Below, one piece after another: positions 17,704 through 19,585 of a stretch of DNA of 23,140 bases. The position numbers and the translations under genes were made by a program. The stretch is from the IMG/VR virus record IMGVR_UViG_3300012954_000091, positions 1 through 23,140 of that record; one strand, given 5' to 3'. The notes under the pieces were generated by a model. It was not told the DNA's origin. It was given only the letters and a program-made list of their open reading frames with translations, and ran no database searches. Positions within the stretch are counted from its first letter, which is position 1. Each line of letters starts with the position of its first letter. The stretch comes from a virus.

Positions 17704-17953
17704 AGACCAACTAATTGATCTTTGGGATATCTTTTCGGAGTATGTCCCAAAGACAAACAAAGAACAGTTAGCAATGCAATATGTTAAATGGTGTCAAGAC
17801 AACGGCGTCGAAGAAGATGTTCTTTATGCTTTAGGAGGTGAAGATCCATACTTAGAAGAAGCAGTGGACGACCTACAAGGCAAAAGACATAAAGATGATG
17901 ACGATGATTGGGACGAAGATCCATATAGCAGTGATAACGAAGAGTGGGATTAA
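17696..17953 (+). CDS. Small acidic protein between uvsX and uvsY (marine T4-like family)
   Basis: 85 residues from the ATG at 17696; a GTG at 17687 in frame would add three residues and is less likely. The N-terminal part (SEDQLIDLWDIFSEYVP, then QLAMQYVKWCQDNGVEEDVLYAL) is helical; the C-terminus is extremely acidic (DDDDDWDED, SSDNEEWD). I remember a comparable small acidic protein following uvsX in cyanophages, with no known function. It overlaps uvsX by 8 bases (ATGAGTGA) and uvsY by one (TAATG), so all three are translationally coupled. An acidic tail could compete for the basic DNA-binding surfaces of gp32, UvsX or UvsY; this is speculation. Confidence 0.75.
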   Translation: MSEDQLIDLWDIFSEYVPKTNKEQLAMQYVKWCQDNGVEEDVLYALGGEDPYLEEAVDDLQGKRHKDDDDDWDEDPYSSDNEEWD

Positions 17954-18408
17954 TGAACTGGTATTCTAGAATTACACAAGACATTGGTAATATTCCTGAT
18001 GCAATTTTGTGGTATGAAAATGAACTACAAGAAGCACGTAAGGAAACTAGATTGTTTGGAAACTTAGAAAAACAGGCGGCAAACTTGCCTGGTATAGTTG
18101 AAGAACGTTTTGGTCAATTACAAGAAATTGAAGCAGTACTAGAATACTTAAACATTGAACTACGTAGAACTAGATCAAAGTTTTTCAAACAGTATTTGGA
18201 AAATTATCAAAGAGCATTAAGCAGTCGTGACGTTGAAAAATATGTTGACGGCGAAGCAGACGTAGTTGACTTTGAAAAAATTATCAACGAGTTTGCTCTG
18301 CTACGTAACAAGTGGTTAGGTGTAATGAAAGGTATTGACATGAAGCAATGGCAAATTACTAACATTACTAAACTACGTGTAGCAGGCATGGAAGATGCAT
18401 CAATTTAA
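17953..18408 (+). CDS. uvsY: Recombination mediator UvsY
   Basis: 151 residues (T4 UvsY has 137), helical and charged. The position after uvsX and the segments IPDAILWYENELQEARKET, ANLPGIVEERFGQLQEIEAVL, LRRTRSKFFKQYLENY and the ALLRNKWLGVMKG helix fit the UvsY family. It loads UvsX on gp32-coated single-stranded DNA. The ATG at 17953 overlaps the previous stop by one base; an in-frame GTG at 17944 is inside the preceding gene and less likely. It closes the gp32-uvsX-uvsY operon, whose end is followed by an inverted repeat and the promoter of the small-RNA gene. Confidence 0.88.
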   Translation: MNWYSRITQDIGNIPDAILWYENELQEARKETRLFGNLEKQAANLPGIVEERFGQLQEIEAVLEYLNIELRRTRSKFFKQYLENYQRALSSRDVEKYVDGEADVVDFEKIINEFALLRNKWLGVMKGIDMKQWQITNITKLRVAGMEDASI

Positions 18409-18418
18409 ATAAGATCAT

Positions 18419-18439
18419 TTTGGACAACTTTTGTTCAAA
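18419..18439 (+). repeat. Short inverted repeat after uvsY
   Basis: TTTGGACAA (18419-18427) pairs with TTGTTCAAA (18431-18439), one G-T pair, three-base loop. It is not followed by a T-run, so it is a poor terminator; it ends 6 bases before the -35 box of the next promoter and may be a processing site or operator. Confidence 0.5.
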
Positions 18440-18445
18440 TAAAGG

Positions 18446-18474
18446 TTGACTTTTATAGCATTATTTGTTATATT
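18446..18474 (+). promoter_or_regulatory. Sigma70-type promoter of the putative small RNA
   Basis: TTGACT (18446-18451), 17-base spacer, TATATT (18469-18474). Start predicted at about 18481, exactly where the closing helix of the RNA begins. No open reading frame with a ribosome site follows. Confidence 0.75.
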
Positions 18475-18480
18475 AGTAAC

Positions 18481-18729
18481 ATAAGCAACAAAGAGTTTAG
18501 CGGCTCGATGTTTATAGTGCAAGGAAGAGGCTCTTACCAGAGGGTCGAACTTGACTAGTTAGGGGTGGTACCCAGGCTTGGTAGTAGAAATACGCTGAGT
18601 CACATCGCTCTACCGAGCGGAACTAGGTTCCTGGGATTCAGACAGGTATCTGCGTCAAAGGGTTGTAGGTGTAACCAAGTCCTACCTATTTTGCTTTATT
18701 TGAAAAGGCGCTTCGGCGTCTTTTCTTTT
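18481..18729 (+). ncRNA. Putative structured non-coding RNA (~220-250 nt), unassigned
   Basis: This gene-free stretch is visibly richer in G and C than its surroundings. The 5' end (ATAAGCAA, 18481-18488) pairs with the 3' end (TTGCTTTAT, 18691-18699, one bulge), enclosing further hairpins: CTCT/AGAG (18531-18542), AACT/AGTT (18548-18560), CCCAG (18571-18575) with CTGGG (18631-18635), CGCTC/GAGCG with UACC loop (18606-18619), GAAC/GTTC (18620-18630), CAGA/TCTG (18639-18652) and GTAGG/CCTAC (18665-18685). These helices are mutually compatible. A sigma70-type promoter starts at +1 of the closing helix and a UUCG terminator follows. It lacks the tRNA, tmRNA and RNase P signatures I know. A stable regulatory or host-mimicking RNA is the best description; function unknown. 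Confidence 0.65.
18703..18729 (+). terminator. Rho-independent terminator with UUCG tetraloop
   Basis: 9-bp stem (AAAAGGCGC with GCGTCTTTT, one G-T pair) closed by a C(UUCG)G tetraloop, followed by CTTTT. Ends the small-RNA transcript and isolates it from the glycan operon. Confidence 0.9.
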
Positions 18730-18767
18730 GACTATTCAAATAAAAAACTTCCCATTATATACGCACA

Positions 18768-18778
18768 TAAATAGTACT
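18768..18778 (+). promoter_or_regulatory. Late promoter, leaderless type, for the glycan operon
   Basis: TAAATA (18768-18773), GTACT, ATG at 18779. No Shine-Dalgarno. Determines the start of the first glycan gene. Confidence 0.78.
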
Positions 18779-19585
18779 ATGAAACAGAAAACCATAGTAC
18801 TAGTAACAGGTGGATTTGATCCTATACACAGTGGTCATTTACATTATTTAGAAGAAGCAAAAAAGTTAGGCGACGAACTTTGGGTAGGACTTAACTCAGA
18901 TGATTGGCTAACACGCAAAAAAGGACAACCGTTTATGCCACTTAATGAACGTGTTGAAATAACAAAAAGACTTTATATGGTTGACGCTGTTATTGATTTC
19001 GACGACAGTGATGATAGTGCATGTGCGGCGATTTTTAAAACAAGAAGTTTAAATTCATTAGATGATAAAATTATTTTTGCTAATGGCGGAGACAGAACTT
19101 GGAAGAACATTCCAGAAATGCTTACATACGGTGACGATCCAGCAGTTGAATTTAAATTTGGTGTAGGCGGAGAACATAAAGCCAATAGCAGTAGTTGGAT
19201 ATTAGAAGAATGGAAACATCCAAAAGTTGAAAGACCATGGGGTTGGTACAGAGATTTGTATACTATCGGTAAAGGTGTTAAAGTCAAAGAACTTGTTATT
19301 GCTCCTGGACAAAAATTATCAATGCAACGTCATTTTAAACGTGCAGAAATGTGGTACGTGCTTAAAGGTTGTTGTAAAGTAAAGACAGAGTTAAATGGTC
19401 ATGTGAATGATGTTACATTGCCACACTTAACAAAAGGTTATGATATTGACAAAGAAGTTTGGCATCAAGGATACAATCCTTTTGAAGAACCATGTCATAT
19501 ATTAGAAGTTCAGCATGGAGATGAATGTGTCGAAACTGACATAGAAAGAAAAGACGTAGACGATAACTACGGAAAAGGATTATAA
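18779..19585 (+). CDS. Nucleotidyltransferase-cupin fusion (cytidylyltransferase-like plus type II mannose-6-phosphate isomerase-like)
   Basis: 268 residues. Residues 1-~145 are a cytidylyltransferase-fold domain with VTGGFDPIHSGHL (HxGH at 17-20) and the LNERVEITKRLYMVDAVIDF region, as in RfaE C-domain or glycerol-3-phosphate cytidylyltransferase. From residue ~150 the protein turns into a cupin: ERPWGWYRDLY (152-), LVIAPGQKLSMQRHFKRAEM and ILEVQHGD match the C-terminal isomerase domain of ManC-type enzymes. In those enzymes the metal loop reads HHHRAEH; here only the first metal His is kept (His185) and the second is Lys187, with Glu190 retained. Likely role: making an activated sugar or polyol for surface glycan. 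The ATG at 18728 in frame lies before the late promoter and is rejected. Confidence 0.82.
   Translation: MKQKTIVLVTGGFDPIHSGHLHYLEEAKKLGDELWVGLNSDDWLTRKKGQPFMPLNERVEITKRLYMVDAVIDFDDSDDSACAAIFKTRSLNSLDDKIIFANGGDRTWKNIPEMLTYGDDPAVEFKFGVGGEHKANSSSWILEEWKHPKVERPWGWYRDLYTIGKGVKVKELVIAPGQKLSMQRHFKRAEMWYVLKGCCKVKTELNGHVNDVTLPHLTKGYDIDKEVWHQGYNPFEEPCHILEVQHGDECVETDIERKDVDDNYGKGL

Follow-up and report, generated by a model that had tools for sequence, protein, structure and literature searches.

A structured RNA of the manA type (about 18481-18698) lies on the plus strand of the 23,140-nucleotide stretch of viral DNA analysed here (the window), between two genes of the same strand, as the original prediction had placed it. 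The upstream neighbour is a uvsY-like recombination mediator (17944-18408; phrog_231, 7e-16), and the downstream one (18779-19585), which is thought to lie outside the RNA unit, combines a cytidylyltransferase-like domain with a mannose-6-phosphate isomerase C-terminal domain (PF01467, 1.8e-15; PF01050, 2.5e-18). The unit opens with a sigma70-type promoter at 18446-18474 (TTGACT-17-TATATT), which has 10 of 12 consensus matches plus a TG extension ahead of the -10 element and sets the predicted +1 at about 18481. It is closed by an intrinsic terminator with a UUCG loop at 18702-18725 (GAAAAGGCGC-TTCG-GCGTCTTTTC, then TTTT), the one terminator-like site within 18000-19000, where 0.4 would be expected. 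Both signals were found as they had been predicted.

The claim that this stretch holds no credible open reading frame is borne out by the collected copies, almost none of which is open in any frame. A 69-amino-acid ORF with a GTG start (18565-18774) was considered as a gene and rejected, being open throughout in two of 40 copies in one frame and in none in the other two. ARAGORN and Rfam returned no tRNA or tmRNA match in the stretch, in agreement with the absence of such landmarks noted before. Small hypothetical coding sequences, probably spurious, are annotated over the manA RNA in AY940168 (PSSM4_169.1, 164884-165057) and in GU071098 (SSSM7_180, 151441-151572).

Fold and covariation

The fold is closed by two helices. 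The outer one, P0, pairs AAGCA (18483-18487) with TGCTT (18692-18696); the inner one, P1, pairs ATAG (18514-18517) with CTAT (18686-18689), is near-invariant and paired in 32 of 32 copies, and has as its counterpart in RF01745 the helix marked [[[[[ there. A hairpin on the 5' side (18488-18511), with ACA/TGT and, above it, GAG/CTC, was obtained from the fold, and its ACA/TGT helix covaries from A-U to C-G. The following arm (18520-18553) consists of P2, CAAG (18520-18523) with CTTG (18550-18553), and of P2b, GGCTCT (18529-18534) with AGGGTC (18541-18546), which covaries. The P3 multibranch element (18555-18626) is held by CTAGTT (18555-18560) and AACTAG (18621-18626) and encloses P3a (18563-18573), P3b (18577-18599) and P3c (18606-18619); double changes occur at 6 of 6 pairs of P3 and at 6 of 6 of P3b, and P3c is placed by the fold alone, at a point where the alignment is ambiguous. 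The P5 hairpin (18665-18685), GTAGG (18665-18669) with CCTAC (18681-18685), covaries and is 100% paired.

Folding of the window stretch yields -80.1 kcal/mol (z -2.05 against shuffles), a mildly unusual value that would be weak evidence if taken alone; the case for an RNA beyond chance depends, in our judgement, on the comparison with relatives. The core 16-mer TAGTGCAAGGAAGAGG, invariant among the collected stretches by selection, is present exactly in at least 120 viral contig stretches. In the structure alignment, 32 non-redundant relatives support nine helices within a 42-pair structure, with 98.1% of the cells paired; shuffles reach 82.3%, and slid controls no more than 52%. Covariation, proposed beforehand as the check on such an alignment, was found: changes on both sides occur at 25 pairs and in 199 cells, against 62 in shuffles. 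The support for the 42-pair structure exceeds that of all 500 shuffles and far exceeds that of the slid controls.

P0 had been predicted as a closing helix that coincides with the transcript start, and this claim holds as well: the pairing is real, it closes the fold at the predicted +1, and its counterpart in relatives covaries, with double changes at 4 of 5 pairs, 96% of cells paired, and AU 16 times and UA 15 times at column pair 11/229. The RF01745 match ends inside P0, and the helix was not found in the Rfam match; judged from the extent of that match, P0 seems to extend the published manA model. On this comparative evidence, we regard the RNA in the window as genuine and as strongly conserved among ocean phages.

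Relationship to manA RNA

An Rfam scan of the window at gathering thresholds gave no match, and in a scan with permissive E-values manA RNA (RF01745) is the sole strong match, the next ones being at chance level. The match spans 18498-18695 and the full length of the model (1-192 of 192) with E = 1.7e-11 and 48.1 bits, which is below the gathering score of 55.2. A near-identical contig is matched at E = 5.1e-13, and relatives score above the cut-off: the copy of Pelagibacter phage Mosig, 77.5% identical in DNA to that of the window, reaches 64 bits, and two collected loci reach 56.7 (L170) and 56.4 (L094). In the phage panel, P-SSM4, P-SSM2, P-SSM7 and S-SSM7 score 124-184, contigs with the core of the window type 42-56, and HTVC008M, a more distant phage, 26; S-SM2, S-RSM4 and Syn19 have no RF01745 match, and no phage record has a second match. 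Because the full-length match falls below the gathering score and close relatives exceed it, the window RNA is classed with the manA family as a divergent, homologous branch, and not as a curated member. The proposed covariance-model check has thus led to a known family, seen in E-value mode only, and the earlier description of the locus as an undescribed structured RNA gene stands as to structure, promoter, terminator and lack of an ORF, but not as to its being undescribed.

The conserved, covarying helices of the family are present in the window RNA, whereas the position of a cis-regulatory leader is not found in its branch. Helix order and occurrence in T4-like marine phages are shared with manA RNA, and the manA copies in P-SSM2, P-SSM4, P-SSM7 and S-SSM7 likewise have their own sigma70 promoter just upstream. 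The sequence cores differ (AGUGCAAGGAAGAGG in the window RNA, AGUGACUGAAUAA in manA RNA), and the window RNA is set apart by the extra outer helix P0, the terminator seal and the lack of an mRNA-leader placement. manA RNA was presented as a cis-regulatory mRNA leader by Weinberg et al. 2010 (PMC2864571), a view also taken in PMC9964418 and PMC10665884; the Rfam label is Cis-reg, and the family is listed as a probable riboswitch. No paper describing manA RNA as free-standing was found in the literature, which was covered incompletely, and no reported ligand was found there.

A scan of genome contigs with the core 16-mer gave matches judged mostly to be due to chance, and a search of a phage collection with a relative as query gave no match. 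RF01745 was also searched for in three genome samples of about 370-400 each, drawn from a gammaproteobacterial class, from the phylum of that class and from a cyanobacterial phylum; no match was found, but the positive control was silent as well. Sub-threshold matches were seen in bacterial MAGs, namely L396 and L398 (Neomarinimicrobiota MAG RS350) and L397 (a Woesebacteria MAG), and these are probably phage contigs binned with bacteria.

Transcription signals and downstream genes

Two types of copies are distinguished, the window type (type A) and the cyanophage type (type C). Upstream of the RNA, the sigma70 consensus is matched at 10 or more of its 12 positions in 83 of 89 type A copies (about 4-5% in shuffles) and in 87 of 93 type C copies (2% in shuffles), although many contigs are related and copy counts overstate independence. 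The distance from promoter to RNA is near-constant among the copies of both types, and the enrichment is not a selection effect, since the copies were collected by a pattern that sits outside the promoter. Within 60 nt past the RNA end, 49 of 89 type A copies have a terminator, in the same place as in the window, against 8 of 445 shuffles (1.8%). These terminators are non-homologous, and 39 distinct copies carry 28 different stems; the gp32-linked copies of type A (n = 22) have none, and in type C terminators follow 21 of 97 copies only.

T4-type late promoters have the consensus NATAAATA (PMC2984593), and 6 of 6 such sites in the window are on the plus strand, directly ahead of genes. That of the gene at 18779 (CATAAATA, 18766-18773) has its expected +1 on the ATG. 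TAAATA stands at exactly -11 from the ATG in 7 of the 24 genes of the window, this one included, which would place the late start of the gene at 18779 on its ATG. The seven genes (352, 6361, 10889, 11249, 11686, 13295 and 18779) have no Shine-Dalgarno sequence, a combination that points to leaderless late mRNAs. In related type A contigs this spacing occurs 46 times, where other spacings occur 2-19 times, an enrichment that is not clear in Mosig or P-SSM4. In type A, a late promoter of the form (A/T/G)ATAAATA is located within 130 nt past the RNA end in 56 of 88 copies, against 7% of shuffles; type C has no such enrichment. With early transcription ending near 18725 and late transcription beginning near 18779, as these signals predict, the mRNAs of the sugar gene should not carry the RNA. 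In type C, on the other hand, the scarcity of terminators and the lack of late-promoter enrichment indicate that the RNA and the downstream gene are probably co-transcribed, and a leader role is possible in cyanophages.

The downstream genes (n = 165, some probably spurious ORFs) form 49 clusters, which include tail-fibre-like, other virion-type, cytidylyltransferase-isomerase, rubrerythrin and peroxiredoxin genes. The largest cluster in both branches is gp32, the single-strand DNA-binding protein (41 of 165, no terminators), which is also downstream of the RNA in HTVC008M. This commonest neighbour is seen at loci of both branches and at KC465899 5037-5296, hinting that the placement next to gp32 is ancestral. 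Identical RNA cores stand ahead of different gene families (L020/L021 and L085/L191), and of 79 type C pairs whose RNAs are at least 95% identical, only 5 share the downstream family. In L170, promoter, RNA and terminator are followed by a convergent gene on the opposite strand, a count that comprises this locus and, by matching sequence, L100, several other minus-strand assignments of the next ORF looking spurious. Seven type C copies have a tRNA-Gly or tRNA-Asn 4-18 nt downstream.

Possible roles of the RNA

We consider it reasonably probable that the window RNA is an early, free-standing, trans-acting phage ncRNA of a divergent manA branch. An RNA of about 220-245 nt would be transcribed early by the host RNA polymerase from its own strong sigma70 promoter, its multi-helix fold would close at the transcript ends, and the intrinsic terminator would end it ahead of the next gene, which would use its own late promoter; the RNA would most likely act in trans, binding a protein, a ribonucleoprotein or another target in the infected cell. 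The sequence gives good support to the structure of the unit and to its autonomy, whereas we infer early timing, stability and trans action, the last of these by elimination. The varied neighbours, the convergent gene in L170 and the downstream tRNAs make a dedicated mRNA-leader role unfit, and an RNA gene appears to fit the window's branch better than the Rfam label does. A counter-point is that the gene downstream in the window suits the namesake of the family, mannose metabolism. Phage T4 encodes the stable RNAs C and D, made next to its tRNA genes, and by description these resemble manA-type RNA as phage-coded, tRNA-adjacent RNAs.

It is unlikely, yet worth weighing, that the RNA controls the sugar operon in cis, as a riboswitch or attenuator in which metabolite sensing sets the read-through of the terminator at 18702-18725 into the gene at 18779. 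The annotation of the family, the isomerase domain encoded downstream and the position of the terminator between RNA and gene are in its favour; however, unrelated genes follow identical cores, a convergent gene or tRNAs follow other copies, and the predicted late start coincides with the ATG of the downstream gene. Moreover, the terminators are outside the fold, and no antiterminator pairing was found when their native 5' arms were compared with swapped ones (difference -0.08 +/- 0.43 kcal/mol). In the MFE structures of full transcripts the terminator forms in 39 of 39 cases and coexists with the fold, so that no expression platform mutually exclusive with an aptamer was found. Because the native arms gain no pairing and the terminator forms in all 39 transcripts, this modelled attenuation test speaks against the usual riboswitch platform; it does not address protein-mediated read-through.

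Distinctly unlikely is a dual role, by which the RNA would originally have been the 5' leader of an early mRNA and also have acted in trans, the sealed cassettes keeping the trans function only. The prominence of gp32 downstream in both branches, without terminators, and its downstream position in HTVC008M would agree with it, but in type A gp32 copies the RNA is immediately followed by a late promoter, and many other genes and tRNAs occupy the downstream place. T4 has a replication origin at uvsY, and a T4-type origin transcript or primer would match the adjoining uvsY in the window and the limit of one match per record. This origin role is nevertheless very improbable, as the placement of the RNA relative to genes varies widely, in Mosig and P-SSM4 the GC-skew does not switch where the RNA lies, and a simple R-loop primer is not expected to show strong structural conservation. 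The suggested mimicry of 6S RNA, by which host RNA polymerase would be sequestered, is hardly credible: the two RNAs share a closed terminal helix and a comparable length, nothing more, whereas an Rfam scan that allowed E-values up to 10 gives no 6S covariance-model match, and the RNA has a multi-branched fold in place of the one long hairpin with a central bubble of 6S RNA.

If the free-standing, trans-acting RNA is extended from the window's branch to the family, the chances seem evenly balanced that no manA RNA is a riboswitch and that the family as a whole is a widespread class of structured RNAs which phages encode, express early and use in trans. T4-like phages, with SAR11, cyanobacteria and others among their marine hosts, would then carry each copy as a mobile one-per-genome cassette of promoter, RNA and often terminator. 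The family has counted among riboswitch candidates since 2010, and its cis-regulatory label recurs in papers on cyanophages. Should the branch, and perhaps the family, be free-standing, a ligand search guided by downstream genes would be the wrong experiment, and protein pull-down and trans-phenotype tests would be the direct route. These are open to isolated phages with cultured hosts, such as Mosig with Pelagibacter HTCC1062, and P-SSM2 and P-SSM4 with Prochlorococcus.

Further structured RNAs accompany some copies. In L128 (8651-9210), a glutamine riboswitch (RF01739), a manA-type RNA and a freshwater-2 RNA (RF02980) are located within 560 nt; the first and the last are structured RNAs of the same phages but belong to distinct families, and the terminator separates the manA-type RNA, which comes before it, from freshwater-2, which comes after it at the next gene's late promoter. 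A freshwater-2-like sequence after a late promoter was also seen by eye in several other contigs. In L125, L154 and L168, a second long structured stretch, which has no Rfam match, lies directly 3' of the manA-type RNA; in L125 and L168 it reads ATAGTGTTTTAGTATACAC ... GTGTATACTAAAACACTAT with inner hairpins, and that of L154 is similar.
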